A DNA stretch of 17,904 bases from a bacterium (GTDB taxonomy: Bacteria; CAIWAD01), in assembly GCA_030429345.1 (NCBI GenBank), contig JAUIFJ010000050.1, forward strand, positions 1-17,904, given 5' to 3'. The position numbers and the translations under genes were made by a program. A model generated the notes under the pieces. The model worked only from the letters and a program-made list of their open reading frames with translations. It was not told the origin of the DNA and did not search any database. Shown here one piece after another: positions 279 to 17,521 of this stretch. Within the stretch, counting starts at the first letter, position 1; each line of letters begins with the position of its first letter.

Positions 279-638
279 ATGGACACAGCCACCTTTGTCA
301 ACAATCTCAATTACGTCTTCGGAAACATGGGAATCACCAAGGCCCATGTAGCCAAGATGTGCGGCGTTTCCAAGGCAACGGTCAGTATGTGGCTCAGTGG
401 GCGCAGGCCCTACAGGCAAAGCATCGAGACCATCGCCGAGTACTTCAGCGATCTGCTGTATCTCGATATCAGCGCCGCAGAGCTCATGCAGGAAGAGATT
501 CCTGAATTGCTGCGCCGCAATGCCGTGAAACGGGTGCTTGTCCAAAAGCTGGTGCGCGATCTGCGCCAGATGCCCCTGGAGAACCTGGTGCAGGTCTCCG
601 AGCAGGTCCAGGGCGCCGGTCCGGCGTCCAGGGACTGA
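279..638 (+). CDS. Small XRE-like helix-turn-helix DNA-binding protein
   Basis: A 119-aa protein. Residues about 12-60 form a Cro/C1-type HTH: a first helix, then 'ITKAHVAKMCGVSKATVSMWLSG' read as the scaffold and recognition helices, then a third helix leading into 'ETIAEYF'. The remaining 60 residues are helical and charged, with no membrane segment, and may be a dimerisation or partner-binding tail. The ATG is preceded by AGGA at a 5-nt spacing. The stop is followed after 8 bp by the GTG of the STAND/SARP ATPase, so the two are almost certainly co-transcribed. The likely role is a cytoplasmic transcription regulator, possibly controlling its own operon or acting as the DNA-binding partner of the ATPase. 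The target is unknown. Confidence 0.85.
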   Translation: MDTATFVNNLNYVFGNMGITKAHVAKMCGVSKATVSMWLSGRRPYRQSIETIAEYFSDLLYLDISAAELMQEEIPELLRRNAVKRVLVQKLVRDLRQMPLENLVQVSEQVQGAGPASRD

Positions 639-646
639 GATTCCCG

Positions 647-3600
647 GTGAAGCGAGCGGACGACGGCGAGGATCCCTTTGTCGGACGCGAGGAGGTCCTG
701 GACAGGCTTCTGGCCTTTCGCCGTGATACGGTGACTGCCGGTGACTGCCGGCTCTGTCTCGTCGAAGGCGAGGCCGGCGTGGGCAAGACCGCGCTAGCCG
801 GAGAGCTGCAGGACCGGTGTGACAGATCCGAAATTCGCGTGATCCGTCTACGCGCCGAGCGCGACTCCACGTTCCTCGACTTGTCCTGGCCCGGTGCAGA
901 CAACCTGCCGGACGAGCGGATCCGTACGGAAGCCGAGGCCCTGCGACTGGCGGTCCGCATGCGGCGCTATTCCCGCCTGCGTGCCCACCTGATCCTGCTC
1001 GACGACGCGCAGATCCTGGATCCGGAACAGCGTCGACTCTTCGGCCAACTTCTGGAAGAATGCAAAGGCGCTTCCCTTCCCTTCATCTTGCTGGCACGCC
1101 CGCTGGCTGCAGGCCTCCGTGGCGAGTGGCTTGCCTTCCTGGAGCAGGAAATCCCGCTTCAGGGACTCCAGGTCGATGAGCTGGCCGTCTACTGGCGGAT
1201 GCGCTTCGGCCAGGAGGGGGCCCCCGGCATGCTCGAAACCCTGCATAATGGAACGGCAGGAAACCCCAGCGCCCTGCGTGCCGTGCTCCAGGCGGCCATT
1301 GCGGCCGGAGCCATCCACTATGATGAGCTGTGCGCCTGTTGGCAGATCGCCGGTTTGGCGGGGGCCCTTCCGGACCTGATCCGAAGAGCGCGCGAAGGGG
1401 TCGTGCGGCCCTTGCTGCAGAGGCTCGACAAGAAGCAGGAAGCGGATCTGGCGGATCTGTCCGTGCTGGGCGAACAGCTCAGCCGAGAGGCGGCGCTGGG
1501 CATCTGTTCCGGTGAGCGCCTTGAGGCGCTTGTAGCACGCGGGCTGTATCGCGAGATCCTCCGCGCGCCGGAAGCCTTCGATCGGCGGGAAAGCGGATCT
1601 CCGACCCTGAGATTGTGTCACAGCCTGCTGCTGCCGCACCTGGAAGACCGGATCCGGCTGGACGCGATCCGCGTGCTCGCTCTCCTGGCCACTGCGCCGC
1701 CCTTGTACAACAGCCGGGTCCACCGCTACCTGCTGAAGCTGTGTGACGCGGATCTGCCGGCGCAGGCCCCGCCGCGCGCGATCCGGCTGCTGATCGATGA
1801 CGCGACCCATTTGCAGCGCAGTGCGGACTGGCCGCTGGGGATTGCCCTGTGCGCCCTTGCACGAAGGCTGCTGGAGCCGCTCAAGGAATCCCTGGGAGCG
1901 GAACGATGGGCCGGACTTCAAGCCCTGAGCCTGCACATCGAGCTGCAGCTGCGCAAGCGCCATCCCGAGGAAGAGGGATTCAAGGTGGCCCTGGAGCAGC
2001 TGCTCCAGCTGTGCCAGGAGCGGCCGAAGGAAGAGCTGATGCAGCGCTACCTCCTGCGTGCCTTCGTTCACCGCAACAGAGCCCAGATGCGCCTGGACTG
2101 GGAGGCGGCGCGCGCATCCTGGGACGAGATCTTCTCCTATGTCACCCGCCGCAAGGAACTGCGCCTGGGCCTGACCTGGGCGGGTCTTCTGTGTGACATC
2201 GCCCTGATGGCCGGATTGCATCGGGATCGAGAGGCCAGCCTGAGAGTGGAGAGTGAGACGCGGGCCCTGCTGTCCCGGGACGACCTGCCAGAAAGGGTTC
2301 GCGGCATGCTGCACTATGCAGAACCTCACCAGCTCTACCTTTTTGACACGTCGGAAGAGCTGGACCGCCGCCGGAAACGGCTGCGGGAGTTGGGGGGCAT
2401 TCTGGACAACCGCAATGGCACCTGGCTGACCATGCGCCTGCTCTTCCTGTGCGACACGGGCGATCTCGAAGGAGCCTTCGCCCTGTGGGAACACGCCCGG
2501 CCGCTGCTGGAGGAAACCGGGCTCGAGCGCAACCTGCTCAACGGCCAGTCGGGCATCCTCCGCCTGCTGGCCATGCGCGGAGAAGCGCCCGAGACGCTTC
2601 AGCGGGAGTTGCAACGGCTGGAGACGCACCCCCTGCTGGGAGAGGACCCCGACCTTCTCCCCCTGTTCCGGGACACGCGGATCTTCTGCGACCTGCTGGA
2701 GGGGCGAGACGACCCCCTGCTCCCGGGGGAAGAAAAGGGCCTGCTTCCCGCCTTGGCCGTGATGGCGCGGGACCGTGTCGCGGGCTTGGCCCTCTTGCCC
2801 GTATACGGAGCGCGACCGGAGCAACTGGAGAACCTGCGCGCCCTGGGGGCAGAGGAGGGATTCCGCAAGGCCTTCCGCCGTCTCTGCCGTGCGCCGCTTC
2901 TGGGCATCGAGGATCTGGTCCTGCCTCAGGTCCTGCGCGGAGTGCTGGACCAGATGGTTCTGCCGCCTGCCTCGCGCAGCGCACTCAAGCAGGACCTGTG
3001 GAAAGCCTGGCAAGTCCGGCTGAAATGGCTTGCCGAGCGGAACTGCTGGCCCAGGATCCAGCGCCTCTGTGAGCTGCTGCAGGGCTGGGCGCGACCGGGC
3101 GAACTGGCATCCTGGATGGATCACAGCCGCCAGGGACGTCGTCGCCAGCCGACCCTGGCCGTTCCGGTCAGTGAAAGGAGGCGCATTCGGCTCGAGCTGG
3201 GCGGCACCTTCCGCCTGATCGGCGAGGAGCGGGAAGAACGCTCGCTTCGGGGAGCCCGTGTGCGGACACTCTGCGGGCTGCTTTCGGCCGTCGAGATCCT
3301 GGGTCGTACACTGGAGCCGGAAGACTTCGCCCTGTTGGCTTCGGGTCGAGAAGATGACCTGGCGAAGGCCCGCAACATCCAGTACGTGACGGTGCATCGA
3401 CTGCGCGAGGCCCTGGGGGTGGATGTAATCCAAACCGACGGGGAGCGTCCGCGCTGGAACCCGCGCCGCATCCAGGTGGATGTGGTCGAGGCCTGGAACC
3501 AGCTGAACGAGGCGGCCCGCCAGGCGCGGAGGGAAGTCTACTTCCTGGCGCACGAAGCCCTGAACTCCGCCCGCAAGGTCCTTTTTGCCGGCGAGGCCTT

Positions 3601-3859
3601 TGCCGGCCTGGAAACCGAATTCTTCGACGCCCTGCGCGAGGACCTGGCCGCCACGCACCGCCGTGTGACAAGTGATCTTGCCCGTCGCCTGGAGCGGGAA
3701 GAGGATCCGGACGGCGTGATCCAGGTGCTGCAGCCATGGATGGAAGCCTATCCCGACGACGAGGAGCTGGGCGACCTGCTTTGCCCCGCGCTTGAAGCCC
3801 GCGAACGGCACGGGGAAGCAGAAACCCTGCGCCGCCGCATGCGCGGTTCAAGGGACTAG
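647..3859 (+). CDS. STAND-type ATPase transcription regulator with C-terminal SARP-like winged helix and BTAD
   Basis: A 1070-aa cytoplasmic protein starting at GTG. An N-terminal AAA/STAND module opens with FVGRE (11-15), then Walker A GEAGVGKT (41-48) and Walker B LILLDDAQ (115-122), as in MalT/AfsR-like signalling ATPases. The middle (about 370-840) is rich in Leu, Glu and Arg and is likely helical TPR/ARM-type repeats. Around residue 845 a beta-strand start (RIRLELGGTFRLIG) leads into an OmpR-type winged helix. Its probable recognition helix is YVTVHRLREALG near 909-920. A BTAD-like helical tail follows to the C-terminus. In SARP regulators such as AfsR the DNA-binding/BTAD part is usually N-terminal, so the order here is reversed. 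It is the second gene of an operon with the small HTH protein. The start has only a weak ribosome-binding site (AGGGA about 12 nt away), which suggests translational coupling. The ligand and regulon are unknown; the convergent protease operon is one candidate. Confidence 0.85.
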   Translation: MKRADDGEDPFVGREEVLDRLLAFRRDTVTAGDCRLCLVEGEAGVGKTALAGELQDRCDRSEIRVIRLRAERDSTFLDLSWPGADNLPDERIRTEAEALRLAVRMRRYSRLRAHLILLDDAQILDPEQRRLFGQLLEECKGASLPFILLARPLAAGLRGEWLAFLEQEIPLQGLQVDELAVYWRMRFGQEGAPGMLETLHNGTAGNPSALRAVLQAAIAAGAIHYDELCACWQIAGLAGALPDLIRRAREGVVRPLLQRLDKKQEADLADLSVLGEQLSREAALGICSGERLEALVARGLYREILRAPEAFDRRESGSPTLRLCHSLLLPHLEDRIRLDAIRVLALLATAPPLYNSRVHRYLLKLCDADLPAQAPPRAIRLLIDDATHLQRSADWPLGIALCALARRLLEPLKESLGAERWAGLQALSLHIELQLRKRHPEEEGFKVALEQLLQLCQERPKEELMQRYLLRAFVHRNRAQMRLDWEAARASWDEIFSYVTRRKELRLGLTWAGLLCDIALMAGLHRDREASLRVESETRALLSRDDLPERVRGMLHYAEPHQLYLFDTSEELDRRRKRLRELGGILDNRNGTWLTMRLLFLCDTGDLEGAFALWEHARPLLEETGLERNLLNGQSGILRLLAMRGEAPETLQRELQRLETHPLLGEDPDLLPLFRDTRIFCDLLEGRDDPLLPGEEKGLLPALAVMARDRVAGLALLPVYGARPEQLENLRALGAEEGFRKAFRRLCRAPLLGIEDLVLPQVLRGVLDQMVLPPASRSALKQDLWKAWQVRLKWLAERNCWPRIQRLCELLQGWARPGELASWMDHSRQGRRRQPTLAVPVSERRRIRLELGGTFRLIGEEREERSLRGARVRTLCGLLSAVEILGRTLEPEDFALLASGREDDLAKARNIQYVTVHRLREALGVDVIQTDGERPRWNPRRIQVDVVEAWNQLNEAARQARREVYFLAHEALNSARKVLFAGEAFAGLETEFFDALREDLAATHRRVTSDLARRLEREEDPDGVIQVLQPWMEAYPDDEELGDLLCPALEARERHGEAETLRRRMRGSRD

Positions 3860-3968: not shown

Positions 3969-6900
3969 CTACTTCAAGTCAGTTCGCAGGATGGGATGCT
4001 TCGTCTTCGCATCGAAGGCAGGCAGATCCTGGAAGAGGTCGCCGATCTTCGTGTTGGCGGGAACGTCCGCTCCCACACTGGCAGAAACGACCCAGCCGTC
4101 GGTATCCACGCCGTATACCCGCAGGAAGCCCATGTCGAGCATGCCAACGGCGTGGTAGTTCAGGTTCAGGTTCGTCAAGTCGGTCTGTGCGACACCGAAG
4201 CCGACGAAGTACATGTTGTCCGCATACTCCAGCACGTAGTGGTCGATCTCCAGCGGATCCCCGTTGACATCCTCGGTCACGGGCGTCCACTGGGCATTGA
4301 CGATCGCCAGGCCGGCGCTGAAGTCGACCGGGGTCATCGTCAGGTCGGTGATCTGGGCCGGCTCGCCCGGGGCGTTGAAGCGGATGCGGTAGGTCGCGTC
4401 CTGTCCCAGGTCGACGCTGCCGGTCTTGTAGACGGCCACGCCGTGCCAGCCGGTGACCGTGGCGCTGAAGCTGCCGGTCTCGTCCTGTCCGCCGCCGTTG
4501 CTGTTCAGGTGCACGACGTTCGTGTACATCTGGACGTAGTCCAGGCCGGCCGCGTAGACGGCAATGCCGAGGTCCGCGTTGCCCGAATCGATGCCCAGGG
4601 TCAGGTCATAGCTCGACCCGGCGGTCAGGTAGACGGCGAAGGCGTCCACGATGTTGTTGCCGTTCATCGCGAAGGGGCCGTTGGGACCGGAGGTGGACAG
4701 GTTGGCCTGGCGGGTGGAGAACTCGACCACGTAGTCGCTGGTCGAGGGATCCGCCGGATAGGTGCTGTGGTGGTTGATGCCGACGTCCTTGACTCCGTTG
4801 GTCACGTAGTCGTTGATGCCCACCAGGACCGTCTCCCCGTCGGCGCCGATCGTGTTCGCCTCCGGATCCAGCAGGGCCGTATTGTCGGTCGCGTGGTAGT
4901 CATAGGCATGGATGTTCAGGCCCGACGAGGCGTCGACAGGCACGGCGGCCATGAAACTCCAGCTGACCGGCAGGCAGGAATAGCCGTGCTGCATGAAGTT
5001 GCCGCCGGGGGTAGTGGGCGCTCCCGTATCACGGTAGTTCGGGGCCGCGCTGCGGACCATCGGGCTCTGGCTGCCGATGGCGTAGGGCTCGACCACGTAG
5101 CGTTCCCAGGCACTGTTGTTGAAGGGCGAGCAGCTGCCGGCCAGGTCGTGGGGTTCGACGATTTCCTCGTTGACATCGATGTGTACACCCAGTTCGTGAC
5201 GGCCGCCGAGAACCATGCCGATCGTGCGGTTGTTCGTGTGCAGTGTCACACCCGCACCGAAGGCGGAAAAGTCTCCGGTCAGGAGGCGCTCGGGACCATT
5301 CAGGGAGAATCGGGTATTGCTGCCGCTCTGGAAGGTGGCGAAGCCGATGTTGGTGTAGCCGGCGTCCACGTCCAGCACGCCTTCCTCGATCAGCGGATCC
5401 GTGATACCGATGGGATCGGAATCGTTGCGCAGGGTGAAGGGATTGTCGGCGCCGCCGTAGATGCCGTGGGTCAGGTCGCCCATGGTGGGCAGGCCCCAGA
5501 TGAAGTTGTAGCTGGCGCTCAGGGGCACGTCGCTGAGGGCGTCCTTGGCGATGACCACGCAATGGAATCCTGTTTCAGTCGGCGTGAAGAGGATTTCCTC
5601 GGAGTCGCCGGGACCGCCGCTGTTGAAGGTGCCCTGGGCGAGGCTGCGAGTGAAATACTCCTGGCTGGGTCCGTAAATGAAGACCGCCAGGTCGGCCGAA
5701 CCGCTGCAGACTTCGAGCAGGATCTGGATCTGCTCGCCGTCGGTCAGGTTCAGTTCGAAGGCGTCTACCAGCTCGTTGGCATCCAGGCTGCCGCTGACCT
5801 CCAGGATCGGCGCACTGGTGGGTGTCGACAGGTACGAGCTGCCGTCGCCTTCGAAGACATAATTGGAGTTGGAGTCGTTGGGATTGAGCACGCCGACACG
5901 ATCCATGTCGCTGCCGCCGTTGGCGTTGGTGCCGACGAAGTCGACCAGCGTGCCGTAGCTGCTGCTCGCGACGTTTGCGCCGAAACCGGTGGTGGCCGTG
6001 ACACCTTCCGCGTGTCCGCGGATGTCATAGTTGGTCGAACCGTCCGTCGAGGCGGCCGCGTAGACTTCCCAGAAGCCGGGCAGATCCCCGCCGTTGTAGA
6101 AGCCGTCGCAGCTGTACCAGAAGTAGTTGGCGGGAGCACGCTTGGGGCCGCGGCTGTAGACAACCGGCGAGTCCGGCGTGAAGGTCGTGCCTTCCCAGAC
6201 GTACTCGTGATACGAGTCGTTGTTCGTCTCGCTGCCTTCTTCCAGGGCCGTCAGGTCGTCGCAACGCTGGCTGACCATGTGCCGGCCGCCGCGCACCTGG
6301 TGGCCCCATTCGCGGACGAAAGTGAAGGTATTGGGGTTGAGGTCGCCACTGTAGGTCGCCCAGGTAATCAGCGCATCATCCCGGTAGTAGCCGGAACGAG
6401 CAGGATTCGCCGCGCTGTAGAAGCTGCTGTTGATCCACTTCCAGTCGATGTAGGTCGTCGCCGGAGCCGGGGCGAGTGCAGTAGCCGGGATCTCGCCGTC
6501 CGGGGCGGCCGTCGTGATCTTGGGCACGATGTCCGCGTCCCAACCACTCACATAGGGCTCCAGATCCGGAGCCAGGATGCCCATCATGTTGGGCAGCACG
6601 CTGATCTCGCGGGTGAAGTCCGAGTTCTGCGGAGTGCCGTTCTTCTGCAGCCGGCTGCGCAGGGTCGCCGCGCTCGGGTATGCGCCGGCGCCGCTCTCGT
6701 AGCGGTGGATCAGCGCCAGCGAAGCCATGGTGCTGGCGACGATCGGCGTGGCGCTCGAGGTGCCGCTGAAGCTGAAAGTATACTCCTGGGAGCAGTCGCC
6801 GGGATCGCCGTCGAAGCGATTGCCGTAGCCGAGGGTCTCGACGCCCTCGCCCCAGCCGTATACGTCCACGCGGGAACCGTGACTGGTCCAGCACATGGGA

Positions 6901-8060
6901 TCGTGGGAGTTGCCCTGGCTGCCGGCGCCGATGACCACGGCGTCGGAATCGCGGAACCAGCGCTGGAAGGCGTTTCCGTATACGCCGCTGTCCAGGTCCA
7001 TGCTGCCGTTGCCGGCGGCCTGGGCGCAGAAGATGCCGTTGGCGCTGTTGACGGAGATCGCGTCGAAGTTGTCGGTCCAGTACTCCATGGCAATGTACTC
7101 GAACTGACCGCAGTTGCAGGTGCAGGTCGTACCCTGGGTCGGGCCGGGAGCGTGGACTTCGATCAGGTAGGTCTCGCCGAGAATCAGGCTGTTGCCCGTT
7201 TCGGCGATGGCGTTGGAAATGTCGGGATAACTGACGCCGCTGGTGTTGGCCCAGTCGCGCGCCGTGGCCCGGGTGTCGTGAACCATGCCGGTCACGCCGA
7301 AGCCGTTGTCGCAGGCATGCATCACGCCGACGACGGCGATGCCGTGGTCGCCGATTCCGCCGTTGTCGTTGTAGATCGTGAAGTTGGTGTCCATGTCCTC
7401 GTGATCGGGGCACCAGCTCTGCTCAATGTCCTGGATCCAGTAGCCGGAGGTTCCGTCGCCGTAGGTGCTGAAGTCCCAGGCGTACTGCATGCCCACGCCT
7501 TCCGGCGCCGGGTCCATGTATTCCTGCTGGGCTTCGTAGTCGCCGGTGGTGGGCGCGACATCGGAGTTGCACACGGCCTCCTCGGCCAGGGGCGAGAAAT
7601 GGCAGGTCTGGATCAGGTCGACGTCCAGCAGGTCCAGCAGCAGCTGCTTCGGCTGGGCGATGTCTTCGCTGAGTTCAAGGGTGTAGTAGTTGTTCATGTC
7701 GGCCAGGTCGATGCCGCTCAGCCTCTCGCCGCGGTCGACCCAGGCGTCCACTTCCTGCTCGCTCAGGCCGTAGATCGTGCGACGCAGCTTGGCCATGGGG
7801 TATTTCTTGAGGAAGGCCTCGAAGGGAGCCATGCTGTGGCCCTCCAGGGAAACGAGCCTTCCGTCGCGCAGGCGCACGCGGGTCTCTTCGGAGAATTTCA
7901 GGACGACGTGGCGCGTGTTCACTTTTTCCGGCGAGACCAGGTCCACGTAGTGGTCGCGGGGCAACAGCTGGTTGCGCTGTTCCAGGCTGTAGTCGTGCAG
8001 GGCCAGTGCCGGGGCCGCCAGAGCGGCGGCAAGGGTGGTCGTGATCAGAATGCGTTTCAT
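3969..8060 (-). CDS. Secreted subtilisin-like serine protease (peptidase S8) with multidomain C-terminus
   Basis: A 1363-aa exported endopeptidase. Residues 1-20 are a clean signal peptide ending ALA. Residues about 45-160 resemble an I9-like propeptide. The S8 catalytic domain follows, with Asp211 (YWIQDIEQSW), His239 (GIGDHGIAVVGVM), oxyanion Asn351 (AAGNG) and nucleophile Ser435 (FSGTSSATP), so it should be active. Between His and Asn there is a Cys-rich insertion (TCTCNCG, about 312-318), likely disulfide-linked. The long C-terminal half is beta-rich: two PPC-like domains near 757-860 and 1130-1240, each opening with a VDAF motif, and an Fn3-like region from about 1243. No type IX sorting tail is visible. 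The ATG overlaps the stop of the upstream small gene by 4 nt (ATGA), with GGAGGTG five bases before it, so translation is coupled. A terminator follows the gene. The role is probably extracellular protein degradation or processing. Confidence 0.93.
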   Translation of the reverse strand: MKRILITTTLAAALAAPALALHDYSLEQRNQLLPRDHYVDLVSPEKVNTRHVVLKFSEETRVRLRDGRLVSLEGHSMAPFEAFLKKYPMAKLRRTIYGLSEQEVDAWVDRGERLSGIDLADMNNYYTLELSEDIAQPKQLLLDLLDVDLIQTCHFSPLAEEAVCNSDVAPTTGDYEAQQEYMDPAPEGVGMQYAWDFSTYGDGTSGYWIQDIEQSWCPDHEDMDTNFTIYNDNGGIGDHGIAVVGVMHACDNGFGVTGMVHDTRATARDWANTSGVSYPDISNAIAETGNSLILGETYLIEVHAPGPTQGTTCTCNCGQFEYIAMEYWTDNFDAISVNSANGIFCAQAAGNGSMDLDSGVYGNAFQRWFRDSDAVVIGAGSQGNSHDPMCWTSHGSRVDVYGWGEGVETLGYGNRFDGDPGDCSQEYTFSFSGTSSATPIVASTMASLALIHRYESGAGAYPSAATLRSRLQKNGTPQNSDFTREISVLPNMMGILAPDLEPYVSGWDADIVPKITTAAPDGEIPATALAPAPATTYIDWKWINSSFYSAANPARSGYYRDDALITWATYSGDLNPNTFTFVREWGHQVRGGRHMVSQRCDDLTALEEGSETNNDSYHEYVWEGTTFTPDSPVVYSRGPKRAPANYFWYSCDGFYNGGDLPGFWEVYAAASTDGSTNYDIRGHAEGVTATTGFGANVASSSYGTLVDFVGTNANGGSDMDRVGVLNPNDSNSNYVFEGDGSSYLSTPTSAPILEVSGSLDANELVDAFELNLTDGEQIQILLEVCSGSADLAVFIYGPSQEYFTRSLAQGTFNSGGPGDSEEILFTPTETGFHCVVIAKDALSDVPLSASYNFIWGLPTMGDLTHGIYGGADNPFTLRNDSDPIGITDPLIEEGVLDVDAGYTNIGFATFQSGSNTRFSLNGPERLLTGDFSAFGAGVTLHTNNRTIGMVLGGRHELGVHIDVNEEIVEPHDLAGSCSPFNNSAWERYVVEPYAIGSQSPMVRSAAPNYRDTGAPTTPGGNFMQHGYSCLPVSWSFMAAVPVDASSGLNIHAYDYHATDNTALLDPEANTIGADGETVLVGINDYVTNGVKDVGINHHSTYPADPSTSDYVVEFSTRQANLSTSGPNGPFAMNGNNIVDAFAVYLTAGSSYDLTLGIDSGNADLGIAVYAAGLDYVQMYTNVVHLNSNGGGQDETGSFSATVTGWHGVAVYKTGSVDLGQDATYRIRFNAPGEPAQITDLTMTPVDFSAGLAIVNAQWTPVTEDVNGDPLEIDHYVLEYADNMYFVGFGVAQTDLTNLNLNYHAVGMLDMGFLRVYGVDTDGWVVSASVGADVPANTKIGDLFQDLPAFDAKTKHPILRTDLK

Positions 8061-10156: not shown

Positions 10157-13100
10157 ATGATCGATGAGTCACGCATTAAAAGCATCGAGAAAATGCTTGA
10201 AAGCGATTCTTATACTGATTTGCACGTGAATTTCGAAGAACTGCTGCAAGAAAACCGGACAAGGGAACAATTTGACCCACAAATTGAAGCCAGACTTTTT
10301 GTAGCCTATTTTAAGCGCCTCAATGCAATTAGAACAGCCTCACACTCTGATGTTAAACACTGTATACAATTTTGCAGATTAACCTCGAAGATGTATGGAA
10401 ACTCGACCAGACAGTATGCCCAGGCATTATCGGCTTATGGCACTATTGTAAGCTTTCTTGGGAAAACGGAATTGCAGATTAGACTCCTGCAAAGAGCCAA
10501 AACACTACTTACTGACACAAAATTTGTCGATACACTCGTTGGTGTTCTAAATAATCTTGCGAGTGCAAGTTTGGAGCTCGGGAATGTGCATAATGGCGAG
10601 AAGTTTTTACGACTTGCATTGAAGCAAGTAGAGTCATGTAATAATTTTCCAAACAAAGAGTTTGAAGGGAATGTTATTGCGAATCTTGGAATTCTTCTTT
10701 CAAATAGGGGTAGAAACCAGGAAGCTATTACGCTTTTAAATAGAGCCCTGGAGCTTAGATGTTCAGTATTGGGGCGAAGGCACATTGATGTTGGGTTCAC
10801 TTTATTTAGCATAAGTCAGTGTTTTCAACGTATGGAAGATCGTGCCAGTGCCAGAAGAACAATTGCTGAGTCTATTGAGATACTGAGGGCAGCTCTAGGC
10901 AGTAAAAACATTCGAATATTGGGTGGCTTAACCCAGTTAGCGGGTGTGCTAATTTCACTTCACGATTATGTAGCCGCAGATATGCTACTGCGTTATGTGG
11001 AAACTCAGTCAAAGCAGATGTTTCCTTACGCTCATTTGCATTTGTATCGGGTATACATAGAAATGGGTCGAATGTACGCAACAATTAATTGCCATTCAAT
11101 GGCTGTTGATTTCTTCGAGAAATCATTAGAAGAGCTTAGCCAGCTTGGAGATAGTAGAACTAAGGCTGCTAATGTTGCCAGATTGCACTTGGGCAAGTCC
11201 AAATTCCACGTAGGGGCTTTTCTAGAAGCAAGAAGAATACTTGAGGATGGTAGACAAATCGCAAAGGAAGCAATTGGTAAACAATCTGTTTATGATGTTT
11301 ACTCCCTTTTGCTGTTAGGTAGTATTGCTGCCCACCAAAACAAATTTGACAAATCTCGCGAAGTCTATTTGGAATCAATCCTGCTCTGTAAGAAACTTAA
11401 ATTAGATAATTCTCTAAATCGTGATGGACAAATTGGATACGCAAACTGTCTTGCAAACGAGGGCAGGTACGCGGAAAGTGCAAAAATAATTGAAAAGCTG
11501 TTGTATGCTAGGAGGGCGCAGTCGGCGGTAATTTCAACAGATGTTGCAAGTTTAAATTTCAGGTTGGCAGAATTATATGTGAAATTGAATCTACAAGACA
11601 AAGTCAATGAACATTTTAGGAGGTCTCTAGAATTATTATGTGCGGTAATAAAAAAATTGGCAGAAGCTTTCTCTGACTTTGAAAGCTTGAATACATCGGC
11701 AATTCTCCATTACTTCCGTAGTTGCTTACTAGCAAGTTATAACACAGAAATCCCCCTGGATCATAATACAATTATAGATCTTGTTCGGACGAAAGGCGTT
11801 CTGGAGCAGGCAAGGGCTGGTCTAATTGGATTCCAAAGTTCGAACGAGCTTGACATGGAAATGATCAGTTCAAGCTCAACGAATGCAAGGAGTGCAGAAG
11901 ATGTTTCGGAACATCCTTCCAATGGCGATTTCAATGATTGCCCAATAGAAAGTTCAAAGAGCATCATAGTAAGTTACCTTTCATTTGATACTCGCCAAAG
12001 TCATGTCAATGTTAAATCTCTATTCGAACACCGCGAGAAGGCCGGCTATACTGCGGTAATTAGCAATGAGAATGACGAAGTATTGGATGTCATTTATCTA
12101 GGTAGTAAAAGTGTTATTGAAGATTGTATTGAACAGTGGTTAGCATGTTGTACTTCAAATTCAGCTGTACTTGATCCAGGGAAGCGTCTCAGAGAGTTAC
12201 TCTGGGACCCTGTTTCAAGATACTCGAATGGTGTTGATCAAGTGTTTGTACTGCCTGATGGCATGGTGACCTATGTCAATTTTGCGACCTTAGTCGCCAA
12301 GAATGGCAATTTTCTTATTGAAGAAGGTCTACTATTTCACTCAATTAATGCGCTTTCGGATTTACATAGATCAACAAGTGAGGATGTAGCCGGCAATGGA
12401 GCTCTTCTGGTTGGCGATCCAGACTTTAGTTTCGAATTTCCAGCACATTCGAATGATACTGATCAAGAAAAAATGGGAAACATTCTGGAAGAAATGGCTG
12501 AGGAGACTTTTGGAGGCAAACATCAGGATGCAAAAATGGGTAATGAGTCGGAGTTTGGCCTAACTTATCGATCGGCAATTTCCAGCGAACTTTGCAGATT
12601 ACCTGGTACAGCTGACGAAGTCACTTATATACAACGCAAGATCAAGGCAAATTGGAAGAATGCAGCAATTCACGTTTTAACTGGTTCGGCTGCTGCTAAA
12701 GACGCGGTTTGCGCCTTGTCACCTGGAAAAGAAATCCTTCACTTTGCTACACACGGATATACAACAACAGCTTACAGAGCAGCGCAAGAGCTTGCAGCGA
12801 ATCCAGCAACTACACCAGTGGGTGCTTCAATCTACTTTGGTAACGCAAATCCAATGAAACAAGCTGGGTTGGCCCTGGCCGGCGCATCTGCGAATTCAGG
12901 ATTGTCAGTCATAGAACGGCAATCTCTTCTTTCGGCAGAAGATATCTGCCAACTTGATCTCCGTGGCGTTCGGTGGGCAGTTTTATCCGCATGTGAAACA
13001 GGGTTAGGGAGGGCCGTCCATGGGGAGGGTGTGTTTGGCTTAAGGCGAGCATTCAGAACAGCGGGTGTAAAAACAACAATAATGAGTTTGTGGAAGGTGG

Positions 13101-13282
13101 AAGACCGATTTACACGGAAGTGGATGGCCGAACTATATTGTGGTCGATATGATCATGGTCTCACTACAATAGAAGCCGTTAACAGTGCAACATTGAAAGT
13201 GTTGCAGTACTGCAGGAAGAACAACATAAGTGTAAATCCTTTTTATTGGGGTGCATTTATTGCGGCAGGAGATTGGCAGTAG
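10157..13282 (+). CDS. TPR-CHAT caspase-like cysteine protease
   Basis: A 1041-aa protein without signal peptide or membrane segment, so cytoplasmic. Residues about 90-530 are tetratricopeptide-type helical repeats; one clear unit is NVIANLGILLSNRGRNQEAI near 171. Residues about 610-1041 are a CHAT domain of the caspase/separase (clan CD) fold. The probable catalytic His866 lies in HFATHG and Cys946 in LSACETG. The C-terminus has the usual EGVFGLRRAF, SLWKVED and YWGAFIAAGDWQ blocks. Both catalytic residues are intact. The ATG has only a weak GAGG site about 9 nt upstream. The gene is much more AT-rich in codon choice than the genes before 10061, suggesting transfer. It converges on an anti-sigma-like/ECF sigma operon 56 bp away. 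TPR-CHAT proteins are known to cleave partner proteins on activation, as in Craspase and gasdermin-linked proteases. The substrate here is unknown. Confidence 0.93.
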   Translation: MIDESRIKSIEKMLESDSYTDLHVNFEELLQENRTREQFDPQIEARLFVAYFKRLNAIRTASHSDVKHCIQFCRLTSKMYGNSTRQYAQALSAYGTIVSFLGKTELQIRLLQRAKTLLTDTKFVDTLVGVLNNLASASLELGNVHNGEKFLRLALKQVESCNNFPNKEFEGNVIANLGILLSNRGRNQEAITLLNRALELRCSVLGRRHIDVGFTLFSISQCFQRMEDRASARRTIAESIEILRAALGSKNIRILGGLTQLAGVLISLHDYVAADMLLRYVETQSKQMFPYAHLHLYRVYIEMGRMYATINCHSMAVDFFEKSLEELSQLGDSRTKAANVARLHLGKSKFHVGAFLEARRILEDGRQIAKEAIGKQSVYDVYSLLLLGSIAAHQNKFDKSREVYLESILLCKKLKLDNSLNRDGQIGYANCLANEGRYAESAKIIEKLLYARRAQSAVISTDVASLNFRLAELYVKLNLQDKVNEHFRRSLELLCAVIKKLAEAFSDFESLNTSAILHYFRSCLLASYNTEIPLDHNTIIDLVRTKGVLEQARAGLIGFQSSNELDMEMISSSSTNARSAEDVSEHPSNGDFNDCPIESSKSIIVSYLSFDTRQSHVNVKSLFEHREKAGYTAVISNENDEVLDVIYLGSKSVIEDCIEQWLACCTSNSAVLDPGKRLRELLWDPVSRYSNGVDQVFVLPDGMVTYVNFATLVAKNGNFLIEEGLLFHSINALSDLHRSTSEDVAGNGALLVGDPDFSFEFPAHSNDTDQEKMGNILEEMAEETFGGKHQDAKMGNESEFGLTYRSAISSELCRLPGTADEVTYIQRKIKANWKNAAIHVLTGSAAAKDAVCALSPGKEILHFATHGYTTTAYRAAQELAANPATTPVGASIYFGNANPMKQAGLALAGASANSGLSVIERQSLLSAEDICQLDLRGVRWAVLSACETGLGRAVHGEGVFGLRRAFRTAGVKTTIMSLWKVEDRFTRKWMAELYCGRYDHGLTTIEAVNSATLKVLQYCRKNNISVNPFYWGAFIAAGDWQ

Positions 13283-13338
13283 CTGGCCTTGCACCCAGAC
13301 TAGAAATTGTTCAATTTTCAGGAGAGCTTACGAAGCCA

Positions 13339-14130
13339 TCAGGAAATTATCCTCAATTGTATTTCAATAATCTTACAATCCGCGTCCATCTTTAGCTCTT
13401 CCCCCGCAACAAGAGGTATCAACTCAAATCGATAAAGGCCTGGTTCCATTGGCGGCACATTCACATAGTTCAGTACAAGGAAATCCTGCGAATAGTTTTT
13501 CCGTGAGCAGACCATGCTCGCTAAGAGCTTTTCTTCCAGGTATACATCCACTTTCAGCTCGTCGGCATCCTCCCAGTGGATAGGGGCCAAAATCAGATTT
13601 ACAATCGGCGCATTCGGGTCGACGATCTGAATGCGATGATGTTGTTCTCCGCGCAGTACCGGCCCGGGGACAAGTTGTGGATGGATAGAAAACCCGGAAG
13701 GCAGGCGTTCTCCAAGCGCCTTGAGCAGGGTCTTCCCGGCATCGGCACCCTGATCAATCAGTTTCCCAAGACGACCTTGCTCGGCCAGTTGTTCTGCCGG
13801 TGCCGGATCCGGTGAAAGCTCTGGCTTGAATCCTGCGTCGATCAGGCGTTGGCGGCACTCGATTGAACTGGCAAGGTGCTTTCCGACGATTTCCCGTTCC
13901 AGTTTGACCAGGCCCCTGCTTGCCGCATCCCAGTTATCGAGGATGACATCTGGTATGTGCGTCGCAAGTTTTTTTTCGGCCTGTTCTTTTCGGAAAGCCA
14001 CCCAGAATCCGTTGCATATCGGATTCTCTTCGACTAGCTCATCAAAGCGATTTCGCTCTTGATCGTCGATGGTCTCGAAGAAGCGGGACAACATGCGGCT
14101 ACGAAACCAGCGGATGTCTTCAGGATTCAT
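13339..14130 (-). CDS. Putative anti-sigma factor with degenerate zinc-finger motif and beta-rich C-terminal domain
   Basis: A 263-aa protein starting at ATG 14130, with AAGGGG 6 nt upstream. It begins 11 bp after the sigma factor stop, so the two form an operon. Residues 58-98 resemble the zf-HC2/ZAS anti-sigma fold: HIPDVILDNW, an E-R-E-I-V-x-x-HLASSIECRQRL segment. By comparison with the usual H-x3-C-x2-C, the ligands would be His58, His85, Ser89 (in place of Cys) and Cys92. Zinc binding may therefore be weak or lost. Residues about 105-160 are a Pro/Ala/Glu-rich linker and helix. Residues about 160-263 look like a beta-sandwich (KVDVYLEEKLLAS, DFLVLNYVNVPPMEPGLYRF). There is no transmembrane helix, unlike most anti-sigma factors. 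I infer it restrains the adjacent sigma factor and could be a target of the CHAT protease. Confidence 0.65.
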   Translation of the reverse strand: MNPEDIRWFRSRMLSRFFETIDDQERNRFDELVEENPICNGFWVAFRKEQAEKKLATHIPDVILDNWDAASRGLVKLEREIVGKHLASSIECRQRLIDAGFKPELSPDPAPAEQLAEQGRLGKLIDQGADAGKTLLKALGERLPSGFSIHPQLVPGPVLRGEQHHRIQIVDPNAPIVNLILAPIHWEDADELKVDVYLEEKLLASMVCSRKNYSQDFLVLNYVNVPPMEPGLYRFELIPLVAGEELKMDADCKIIEIQLRIIS

Positions 14131-14141
14131 GCATTGCCCCT

Positions 14142-14705
14142 TTAGAGGAAGTCGCCCAGGCCATCGGCGAAAGCAAGTTTCAGGTTCTTCATACAGCGTG
14201 ACCACTTCTGTCGCAGGGAATCATAGGTGATGTTTTCAAGCATTTGGTCTTCATGGATCTGCTTCAAGCCAGCCCCCTTCAGAATCAGAACTGCAATCTG
14301 TCTGCAGCTGACTCCCTTGGACTTCTGCTGTGCATCATGCTTCTCGAAGAACGACATAACGGCAAAACGTATACGATCCGCTCTATCTCCGGTATCGCAA
14401 AGGGCGTCCAGCGGATTCTTTTGGCTCATGTCCACAAACTGATCCTCTTCCGGCAGCTCCAGATCTTTCTTGCCGCGGGTCCGATTCATGGAGCGGAAGA
14501 AATCTCCCAGGCGATTCTTGGCAATCTCAATTGCATAGCCGAAAGGGTCATCGATTTCCTGGTCCTGGATTTTCTTCCAAAGTGTAACGAGGACATCCTG
14601 GCACAGGTCATCCGTATGAGCGGACAGGTTCTGCAGCCTGCCGCGCAGGAATTCCTGTACGCGTTGAACAAGCGCAGGCCAGTCCAGATCATCCTTATGG
14701 TGCAT
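14142..14705 (-). CDS. ECF-type RNA polymerase sigma factor
   Basis: A 187-aa protein. I chose ATG 14705 because GGAG lies 5 nt upstream; a TTG at 14720 lacks such a site. Region 2 is visible at residues about 10-75: a first helix (ALVQRVQEFLRGRL), the DDLCQDVLVTLWKKI helix equivalent to the AEDLxQDxFLxxW motif of ECF factors, then DDPFGYAIEIAKNRLGDFFR. A linker rich in Asp/Glu follows. Region 4 at about 130-180 holds SCRQIAVLILKGAGLKQI and YDSLRQKWSRCMKNL, although its recognition helix is longer and less canonical than usual. It redirects RNA polymerase to a specific promoter set. It is the first gene of an operon with an anti-sigma-like protein and faces a TPR-CHAT protease. A CRP-type palindrome lies 65 bp upstream. 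Confidence 0.82.
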   Translation of the reverse strand: MHHKDDLDWPALVQRVQEFLRGRLQNLSAHTDDLCQDVLVTLWKKIQDQEIDDPFGYAIEIAKNRLGDFFRSMNRTRGKKDLELPEEDQFVDMSQKNPLDALCDTGDRADRIRFAVMSFFEKHDAQQKSKGVSCRQIAVLILKGAGLKQIHEDQMLENITYDSLRQKWSRCMKNLKLAFADGLGDFL

Positions 14706-15028
14706 CTCCACTCCATGCAACGCGCCGGAGCAGGGCTGTCCGGCGTAGGGGTTGTTCTTGAAATTGAAATGTGACGAAGATCACAGCTGATTTCAACTTG
14801 ATCCTCCGGCACTAGTAGGCATTCCGCATCCTCAGCAGTCTGTCTACCCATCGCAAGCAGTGGCAAAGGCAATCAAGTCGACAAGAGTTTGAAAGAACTT
14901 GCTCTTCTTCTACCAGTCACTGTCACAGAGCTGTTAAACCAACAACCTGCTTTGTAGCGCTCGCCCAATCGTTCTGCCTGGGCATAGCTTCTGAAATGCA
15001 ATCAATTTCAATTGTGGCTGGAGGAAAG
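14706..15028. other. Divergent promoter region between sigma factor and FG-GAP protein genes
   Basis: This 323-bp interval must carry the start signals for two divergent transcripts. It contains the CRP/FNR-type palindrome at 14770-14785 on the sigma side. On that side, TTGAAA (14798-14793 on the minus strand) followed 17 nt later by CACATT is a weak candidate promoter that would place the palindrome inside it. On the plus side only the ribosome-binding site GGAGG just before 15029 is clear. No small gene is evident. Confidence 0.5.
14770..14785. promoter_or_regulatory. CRP/FNR-family type operator
   Basis: The sequence TGTGACGAAGATCACA is a perfect TGTGA-N6-TCACA palindrome, the classic half-site spacing of CRP. 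It is flanked by AA on the left and GCT on the right, close to the extended CRP consensus. It lies 65 bp upstream of the sigma factor start, in the divergent intergenic region. Whether a CRP homologue of this organism binds it is unknown. A chance match is possible but unlikely in a 323-bp region. Confidence 0.6.
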
Positions 15029-17521
15029 ATGAGACACGCAGTTTCTGCATGGTTGTTGGTGATTTGTGTCCACATGGTGGTTTCAACATGCCAAGCATTT
15101 GATTTTGGAGAGGAAACAATTCTTGCCGGACAAACGGTGGACCCCCGCTGTGTTCGGCTTGCGGACATGAATGATGATGGGCTAGCGGATGTAGTTGTTA
15201 CTTCATCTGGCAACAATACTGTTTCCTGGTTCAGAAATCTTGGTGAAGCCAATGGCTTCAGCTCCGGGATTATCATCGAATCGGAATACCTGTACCCCGA
15301 TGCTATAGAGTGTAATGACCTGGATTCGGATGGTGATGTCGATGTGCTGGTTGCGTTTCGATTCAGCAACAGAGTGTCGTGGTACGAGAACATGGATGGT
15401 GCAGGGAATCAATTCCAAGAACATGTAGTATCTGACGTACTTGATCAACCCACTGCAGTGCATATTGCGGATATGGATAGTGATGGAACAATGGATGTTA
15501 TTGTGGCTTCGGACTATATCCAGAATCTGGTCTGGTTCCCGAATGAGCAGGGAGATGGCGAATTCAGCTCGTTGATTGGAATTGCGCTCAATTCATATTC
15601 GGAGCGGATTTACGCTTGTGATATCGACAATGACCAAGGAATGGATATCCTCTCTGTTTCCTTGCAAACCGACGAGGTTCGCTGGTACAAGAATTTTGGT
15701 GGTCAGGGCCAATTCTTTACAGATCACCTCATTGCAGAAATTGGGGGTCCCACGAGCATTCAGTGCGTCGATGTTGACAACGATACGGATCTGGACATCG
15801 TTGTGGCGGGGACATACAACGACGAGGTGGTCTGGTATCAAAACCTGGATGCTCAAGGAACATTCAGTGAAGAGATCGAAATCACTGATTCAGTTAATAA
15901 TCCCTGGGATCTTCAATGCAGGGACATGAATGATGATGGCCATGTAGACATTGTCGTGCTGTCCAATTCGGACTACACTGTGGAGTTGCTTCTGAACTCA
16001 GGTTCAAATGGTGTATTCGGAGAAGGCGTTAGCATTGCCACCATCGACACGTTCTATCGTTCTATGGACGTATCTGCAAGTGGGCAAGGGAATTCTCCAG
16101 TAGTAGCGACTATTGCCAGCAATAACATTGTAGCGTTCCATTCGGAGTTCGAAGGTTCTTGGATGACTCGGGAGATAACCTCGAGTGCAGAAGGAGTAAG
16201 AATTGCCGTAAGTGCAGACATGGATCAGGATGGAGATCTGGATGTGATCGCCTCGTCCAATGAGGAAGAAAAGCTCCTTTGGATGTCCAACCTGGATTCG
16301 GCTGGGCGCTTTGGACCTAGTCACGATGTGCCCCTGGAGTGGAATGACCACTTTAGAGCAGTGGCAGTCGCTGACCTGGACGGGGACCAGGACTTGGATG
16401 TGATCGGAGCAGGCTTGGACTTGAAGTGGTTCCGGAATGAAAATGAGTCCGACGAGTTGACCTTTGTTGAAGAGTTGGCATCCGGACTTGGATACATAGA
16501 AACTATTATCCCGATGTTCATTAACGGAGATGACAGTGTGGATCTCCTGCTGCGGGTAGGGTCCAATAATGCTATTGGTTGGCTTCCGAATCTGGATGGT
16601 CAGGGCAGTTTCGGATTGTTTCAGGTAATCGCAACTTTCGATGTAGGACATAACTCACTCAAGTGCGCGGATATAAATCAGGATGGGTTGTTGGATGTCG
16701 TTGTTGGTACAAATGATGGGCTGTTTTGGATCGAGAACCTTAATGGTCAGGGAAGTTTTGGCGAAGCGCAGACGATTGCCGATGCAAGTGTTGGAAAAAT
16801 TGAGGTGATACGTATTGATGACGATGATTTTCCGGATGTCGTTGCAGGTTTGGGCAGAGAAATGCACTGGTATCGAAATCCTGGCACCTCCGGGGGGATC
16901 TGGATTGATGCGGACATTCAACCAGACCTAATGGGTTTAGGAAGCACTCAAAACATCATAGGAAAAGATTTGGATCTTGATGGTGATACAGATCTCGTCG
17001 TTTCCTGGGGCGGAATTCGTGATCCAGATCTGGCTGATATCCTGCTGTTCGAGAACGAAAACGGAAATGGAGACTTTGGTGCATACGAATCTGTTCCTGT
17101 TGAAGTAGAAAATATCAGTGACCTTGAAGTCGCCGATATGAATGGAGATGGACTTCCGGATCTCTTGCTTTCTTCTAGCAGCAGTAGCCAAGTCGTTTGG
17201 GTCAGGAATGAAGGTCCGGTCAGCATTGCACCACGTCAGGAATATGAGTCGCGTCCCAATAGTGTGGTTCTTGAACCTGCATTCCCCAATCCTTTCAATC
17301 CTGCGACGAGAATTCCGTTTCGCATCTCATCTATTGCCAAGGTTCAATTGGATCTATATTCGGTAAATGGGAGAAGAGTCAAGAGCCTGGTTGATGGAGT
17401 GTTGCCTGCAGGGCAACATGCAGCCTTTCTGCAGGCAGATGGCCTTGCGAGCGGGGTTTACTTCGTGACTCTTCGATCCAATGGGGTGCAGCAATCACAG
17501 AAAATTCTGTTGCTAAAGTAA
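15029..17521 (+). CDS. Secreted FG-GAP/VCBS repeat protein with type IX-style C-terminal sorting domain
   Basis: An 830-aa exported protein. I chose ATG 15029 over 14996 because GGAGG precedes it and the signal peptide then begins cleanly: MRHAVSAWLLVICVHMVVSTCQA, cut before FDFGEE. About twelve repeats follow, each with a calcium-binding D-x-D/N-x-DG-x-x-D loop and a strand ending in a W-x-x-N motif, for example LADMNDDGLADVVV, VADLDGDQDLDVIG and VADMNGDGLPDLLL. They predict a beta-propeller. The last 80 residues start at AFPNPFNPATRIPF and end with GVYFVTLRSNG and KILLLK. This is the FlgD-Ig-like/Por sorting type domain widespread in FCB-group bacteria with type IX secretion. It is probably cell-surface or secreted, for adhesion or polymer binding. 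It is divergent from the sigma operon and so may belong to its regulon. Confidence 0.9.
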   Translation: MRHAVSAWLLVICVHMVVSTCQAFDFGEETILAGQTVDPRCVRLADMNDDGLADVVVTSSGNNTVSWFRNLGEANGFSSGIIIESEYLYPDAIECNDLDSDGDVDVLVAFRFSNRVSWYENMDGAGNQFQEHVVSDVLDQPTAVHIADMDSDGTMDVIVASDYIQNLVWFPNEQGDGEFSSLIGIALNSYSERIYACDIDNDQGMDILSVSLQTDEVRWYKNFGGQGQFFTDHLIAEIGGPTSIQCVDVDNDTDLDIVVAGTYNDEVVWYQNLDAQGTFSEEIEITDSVNNPWDLQCRDMNDDGHVDIVVLSNSDYTVELLLNSGSNGVFGEGVSIATIDTFYRSMDVSASGQGNSPVVATIASNNIVAFHSEFEGSWMTREITSSAEGVRIAVSADMDQDGDLDVIASSNEEEKLLWMSNLDSAGRFGPSHDVPLEWNDHFRAVAVADLDGDQDLDVIGAGLDLKWFRNENESDELTFVEELASGLGYIETIIPMFINGDDSVDLLLRVGSNNAIGWLPNLDGQGSFGLFQVIATFDVGHNSLKCADINQDGLLDVVVGTNDGLFWIENLNGQGSFGEAQTIADASVGKIEVIRIDDDDFPDVVAGLGREMHWYRNPGTSGGIWIDADIQPDLMGLGSTQNIIGKDLDLDGDTDLVVSWGGIRDPDLADILLFENENGNGDFGAYESVPVEVENISDLEVADMNGDGLPDLLLSSSSSSQVVWVRNEGPVSIAPRQEYESRPNSVVLEPAFPNPFNPATRIPFRISSIAKVQLDLYSVNGRRVKSLVDGVLPAGQHAAFLQADGLASGVYFVTLRSNGVQQSQKILLLK

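Follow-up and report, generated by a model that had tools for sequence, protein, structure and literature searches.

A TPR-CHAT protease gene facing an ECF sigma factor and a soluble anti-sigma-like protein: a likely protease-released sigma switch

The 17,904-nucleotide stretch analysed here (the window), which is the whole of contig G000:C50 of a 4.24-Mb draft genome, carries the gene of a protease with tetratricopeptide repeats (TPRs) and a CHAT domain, converging on a two-gene operon for an extracytoplasmic function (ECF) sigma factor and a 263-residue anti-sigma-like protein. Based on gene neighbourhoods, predicted compartments, a fusion protein and a conserved linker motif, we consider it the best explanation, with a probability of roughly 0.64, that the CHAT protease acts directly on the anti-sigma protein and that the trio is a protease-released sigma switch. 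The coordinates confirm the convergent arrangement and its 56-bp spacing given in a preliminary description of the locus, the features of which are as follows.

10157-13282, plus strand: TPR-CHAT protease gene, 1041 aa (Pfam CHAT E=3e-54, TPR_12 E=2e-24)
10478-11632, plus strand: TPR region, residues ~108-492, from TPR family matches; putative sensor
12173-13273, plus strand: CHAT catalytic domain (PF12770), residues 673-1039, from Pfam
12752-12754, plus strand: codon of catalytic His866 (HFATHG); His in 44 of 46 aligned relatives
12992-12994, plus strand: codon of catalytic Cys946 (SACETG); Cys in 46 of 46 correctly aligned rows
13283-13338: convergent intergenic gap between the CHAT and anti-sigma genes, 56 bp, from the sequence
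13339-14130, minus strand: soluble anti-sigma-like protein, 263 aa; 27-28% identity to membrane-anchored zf-HC2 homologues encoded after a sigma gene
13648-13653, minus strand: R160-G161, conserved linker Arg-Gly and candidate cleavage site, kept in 4 of 4 family members
13819-14130, minus strand: N-terminal helical part, residues 1-104, proposed sigma-binding domain with two degenerate zinc sites (around C39 and H85/C92), from alignment with the homologue of genome G275
14142-14705 from ATG (14720 from TTG), minus strand: ECF sigma factor, 187 aa (Sigma70_r2 E=3e-7, over the cut-off)

The protease has the composition of the TPR-CHAT class, i.e. a CHAT domain with a His-Cys dyad and TPRs in front of it, and both catalytic residues are in place, as the preliminary description had it, and are conserved in relatives. 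No signal-peptide-like segment is present, and an in-frame stop lies immediately 5' of the ATG. The CHAT profile matches structures of Csx29, the TPR-CHAT protease of type III-E CRISPR systems, distantly (E ~1e-6), and those of separase weakly (E ~0.8).

In the sigma factor, region 4 falls below Pfam detection (it is detected in 37 of 54 CHAT-linked sigmas), the C-terminus aligning with homologues with which it shares a W[SK]RC motif. The gene of the 263-residue protein starts with an ATG 11 bp past the sigma stop, behind an AGGGG ribosome site, and from this arrangement translation of the two is probably coupled. Pfam detects no domain in the 263-residue protein, and no transmembrane helix is found, in agreement with the absence of a membrane anchor noted before. 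The zinc-finger motif that had been ascribed to it is in contrast not retained, as the two sites HLSECDEC and HLEHCGQC of the G275 homologue correspond to ENPIC and HLASSIEC in the window protein; the HxxxCxxC motif is intact in the homologues of genomes G275 and G102. By alignment, the protein is a zinc-less relative of zf-HC2 proteins and not a zinc-associated anti-sigma (ZAS) protein, and is judged an anti-sigma by homology to proteins with zinc sites, not by an intact motif. An AlphaFold model of the 263-residue sequence alone, of low confidence (mean predicted local distance difference test score, pLDDT, 43.6), has helices to residue 141 and strands from residue 148, as would suit a protein built of a sigma-binding part followed by a linker and a beta domain.

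Four members of this anti-sigma family were found, and a TPR-CHAT gene adjoins the sigma/anti-sigma pair in all four cases. Besides the window, these are a paralogue on contig C75 of the same genome (269 aa, 28% identical, with a membrane helix) and the members from G275 (312 aa, two intact zinc sites, a membrane helix, zf-HC2 E=5e-12) and G102 (308 aa, two intact zinc sites, a membrane helix). The C75 pair, the only other such pair in the genome, lies in a single-strand operon in the order sigma, anti-sigma, two secreted 460-aa paralogues and CHAT; as the genome has only four CHAT genes, a second pair would fall by chance no farther than 6 kb from any of the remaining three with a probability of ~1%. 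G275 has the same convergent layout as the window, with a 62-bp gap. In G102 the order is CHAT, sigma, anti-sigma, the adjacency of the latter two being deduced across a contig break, as the sigma gene lies at the end of one contig and the anti-sigma gene at the start of another that does not overlap it. Scans of genome contigs with the 263-residue protein, as single and as aligned queries, gave no matches, and the pair is absent from the other genomes of the window's phylum (five genomes in total), including G002-G004 of the same family. The two 460-aa secreted proteins of the C75 operon (L005:12385-15205) have no assigned family and are possible sensors or substrates, and a subtilase directly precedes the C75 sigma gene.

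The linkage extends well beyond this family. In a domain-wide sample of 386 genomes, 111 had CHAT matches, and 80 CHAT loci containing 83 CHAT genes were picked by score and gene length only, not by the presence of a sigma gene. An ECF sigma lies within 2 kb of 37 of the 83 CHAT genes, a rate 18.6 times that at 3-9 kb (p=2.8e-14); per 100 kb, ECF genes number 17 at up to 1 kb from CHAT, 8 at 1-2 kb and 0.7 past 3 kb. ECF calls were made with a locally built profile and checked with Pfam, which finds region 2 in 44 of the 54 linked sigmas; among 45 anti-sigma candidates, 25 match zf-HC2 and three match Pkinase. Co-occurrence of CHAT with a sigma pair, set beforehand as a test on which the proposal should stand or fall, is thus found both in the C75 operon and, at the 37 survey genes, in other lineages, and the linkage of CHAT to a sigma/anti-sigma pair is well supported. 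The convergent layout emphasized earlier is in contrast not the rule, since most triads of CHAT, sigma and anti-sigma genes are co-directional operons and convergence is seen in the window, L029, L104, L107, L129 and L135.

The surveyed loci hold further variants. The three Pkinase-matching candidates are probably those of L066, L094 and L095, where the membrane protein after the sigma is apparently a protein kinase, i.e. a kinase version of the trio; these were left out of the motif counts and compartment comparison below. The CHATs of L094 and L066 are the nearest to the window CHAT. At L029:11503-18338 (G275:C155), a single sigma/anti-sigma pair is faced by two TPR-CHAT genes that lie in tandem and are closely related. 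A CHAT protein with an apparent N-terminal adenylate-cyclase-type domain adjoins a sigma and a soluble anti-sigma, the latter partly N-masked, at L160:7487-10711. In L044, L046 and L075 the CHAT is short (~470-480 aa) and free of TPRs, and its neighbours are a sigma and a zf-HC2 anti-sigma that is small and soluble and has a linker of the VPVRG type.

A direct action of CHAT on the anti-sigma is suggested by three observations, namely matched compartments, a fusion and a linker motif. Using a hydrophobicity rule and inspection of N-termini, the CHAT and the anti-sigma are predicted to share a compartment in 44 of 44 clean triads: 30 combine an exported CHAT with a membrane anti-sigma (as two proteins in 29 cases and as one in the L130 fusion), and 14 have neither feature. 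The signal peptide of L099 is visible only with a probable frameshift, G102 fits the pattern and is uncounted owing to its contig break, and L119, L124, L126, L132, L142 and L155 were unscored, their anti-sigma being unrecognisable or incomplete. A plain Fisher test gives p ~1e-11 for rows that are related by descent. The window CHAT is nested in a fully supported group of otherwise exported and membrane systems, implying that signal peptide and anchor were lost together in its lineage and making it a telling case.

The fusion, L130 (G138:C120, 6435-10010, plus strand), is a single 1191-aa open frame without stops that joins zf-HC2, a membrane helix, TPRs and CHAT in one protein, with zinc sites HLKHCEAC and HIATCTRC and the helix near residues 142-160. 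A sigma gene ends ~12 bp before it. The fusion is a single case, from a draft genome.

The third observation is an Arg-Gly pair in the linker. In the window's family the linkers read VPGPVLRGE, LPVPVTRGD, QTGVARGD and QPGLVRGD, and across the survey, kinases removed, Arg-Gly occurs in the 60-aa linker of 31 of 42 anti-sigmas, as compared to 16.7 +/- 2.9 (maximum 26 in 2000) for shuffled linkers. It is present in 21 of 29 cases with CHAT, against 4 of 18 membrane proteins encoded after CHAT-free sigmas (p=0.001), a small control set of which not all are anti-sigmas. The unaligned Arg-Gly count is the safer measure, because the aligner also makes Pro and Gly columns from shuffled linkers and counts of aligned Arg columns are hence unsafe. 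On the protease side, the Asp of an LWxVxD segment after the catalytic Cys is found in almost all sigma-linked CHATs; at this position the profile alignment shows a Ser in Csx29. In separase, which cleaves after Arg, a comparable WDVTD segment contains an Asp. From the Asp and the separase likeness, cleavage after Arg160 is a natural guess, and the exact cut at R160 is offered as a testable one.

Combining these data, we propose the following mechanism. In the cytosol, the 263-residue anti-sigma would keep the ECF sigma inactive via its N-terminal helical domain. Upon a signal, possibly sensed by the TPR region, CHAT would cut the linker, likely freeing the sigma, perhaps once the remaining anti-sigma fragment is degraded, and the freed sigma would then guide RNA polymerase to its target genes. 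In most relatives CHAT is predicted to be exported and the anti-sigma to span the membrane with Arg-Gly just outside it, so that CHAT would act as the site-1 protease, like DegS on RseA. The window lineage, with signal peptide and membrane anchor both lost, would represent an all-cytosolic version. The earlier proposal that a CHAT protease controls a sigma through an anti-sigma without any Cas gene is supported by recurrence in the paralogous operon and in other lineages together with the compartment match, the fusion and the linker motif. The broader generalization, of a widespread CRISPR-independent switch class in which CHAT cuts the anti-sigma after the conserved linker Arg and periplasmic and cytosolic versions interconvert when export signal and anchor are lost jointly, we judge about as probable as its opposite.

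Several observations weigh against the proposed switch. About half of the surveyed CHAT genes have no ECF sigma nearby, indicating that CHAT has other jobs too, and at some CHAT-sigma neighbours (L119, L124, L155) no anti-sigma is recognisable. Two loci excluded as not clean, L096, where 3.5 kb separate sigma and CHAT, and L110, with an unusual 411-aa sigma, would be mixed in compartment, and the CHAT tree holds only two independent compartment changes, one deep and one on the window branch. In addition, the Arg-Gly may be conserved for structural reasons and not because it is cut.

Other explanations of the locus were weighed against the same data. ECF sigmas commonly regulate neighbouring genes, and the CHAT gene may accordingly be a target of the sigma, with the pair sensing stress and turning on an adjacent effector protease against other proteins, e.g. 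in programmed death. The position of CHAT as the last gene of the C75 sigma operon fits this explanation, which we nevertheless regard as unlikely: neither the fusion nor the linker Arg-Gly is expected from it, nor are matched compartments, because a membrane anti-sigma could equally control a cytosolic effector. Contact without cutting, where the TPRs bind the anti-sigma and release or stabilise the sigma complex while proteolysis is aimed elsewhere or lost, would suffice for both the compartment match and the fusion, and a Tyr indeed replaces the catalytic His in two triads (L099, L100). However, the strict retention of the Cys and near-complete retention of the His in aligned relatives, and the location of the conserved site in a linker, where a protease would cut, make this mode quite unlikely.

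The window neighbourhood could also be accidental, whatever holds for its relatives, if a low-GC island brought unrelated genes together. Third-position GC is 0.36-0.62 in the four genes over 10157-17521 as compared to 0.68-0.87 in the remaining window genes, the convergent layout is the rarer one, and the window and G275 CHATs fall in different clades while their anti-sigmas form one family. Yet this sigma/anti-sigma family is CHAT-linked in every case found, once in the identical convergent layout (G275), and the window CHAT and anti-sigma have lost their export features together, so that an accident appears very unlikely. Least credible, at a probability close to nil, is descent from a type III-E CRISPR (Craspase) locus through loss of the Cas genes, even though the three roles are the same and the CHAT profile reaches Csx29. 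The window CHAT clade is nearer to exported, membrane-linked systems, the sigma profile matches ordinary ECF sigmas and not the type III-E counterpart, a sequence search with the anti-sigma profile did not find the Csx30 chains in the PDB, and defence-system models run on the window gave a weak TPR match only, cas genes not having been searched in the rest of the genome. On the latter three grounds a CRISPR origin was rejected. The Craspase parallel drawn in the preliminary description consequently holds for the roles but not for a close relationship; the distant Csx29 likeness and the missed type III-E counterparts argue for an analogue.

The proposed switch can be placed among known systems of regulated sigma release. 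In the DegS-RseA-RpoE system a membrane anti-sigma is cut outside the membrane and an ECF sigma is released, a plan that fits the exported and membrane-bound relatives. Here, however, the role of site-1 protease is proposed for a caspase-like CHAT whose gene adjoins that of the sigma, and the window version has no membrane step. In type III-E CRISPR systems, comprising Csx29 (TPR-CHAT), Csx30 and CASP-sigma, cleavage of the inhibitor relieves sigma inhibition (PMC10028731). The window locus likewise brings a TPR-CHAT protease together with an ECF sigma and its putative inhibitor, but has neither Cas genes nor a guide RNA, its CHAT is only distantly Csx29-like, its inhibitor is a zf-HC2-type anti-sigma and not Csx30, and most relatives are predicted to work across a membrane; as far as seen, Csx29/Csx30 lack the linker Arg-Gly and the LWxVxD Asp or have other residues in their place. 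In CalpL/CalpT/CalpS, a dedicated protease cuts an anti-sigma and frees an ECF sigma, all in the cytosol (PMC11417357), but CalpL is a Lon-type protease with a SAVED domain activated by cyclic tetra-adenylate (cA4) rather than a CHAT protease. ECF54 sigmas are thought to lack an anti-sigma and have CHAT, subtilase and carboxypeptidase domains nearby, the proteases being proposed to act on the sigma itself (PMC8999054, section 3.3). The conserved CHAT and subtilase neighbours are shared, a subtilase standing before the C75 sigma, whereas the window locus has an anti-sigma.

As for the surroundings, the window region 10157-17521 is likely a horizontally acquired island, its low third-position GC genes being those of CHAT, the anti-sigma, the sigma and an FG-GAP protein with a type IX secretion sorting tail (14996-17521, plus strand). 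The latter is divergent from the sigma gene, with ~290 bp between, and is a candidate sigma target. In the 56-bp gap neither a significant fold (z -0.34) nor a hairpin terminator was found. Upstream lie genes for a helix-turn-helix protein of the Cro/C1 type followed by a 1070-aa AAA_16/NACHT-like ATPase (279-3859, plus strand), and for a secreted subtilase-like protein of high third-position GC (3969-8060, minus strand; Peptidase_S8 3e-6, PPC domain) with a 199-aa secreted neighbour.

In conclusion, we found no literature report of CHAT with a membrane or soluble anti-sigma as a general trio, in a search that left out most subscription titles and the main paper on ECF classification. TPR-CHAT genes are common in environmental bacteria, and the searched literature gives substrates only for those linked to CRISPR. 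Should the anti-sigma prove to be the substrate, then for almost half of the sampled CHAT genes of this size class the substrate, the cut site and the output could all be predicted, and Craspase would be one CRISPR-captured version of a broader signalling scheme.

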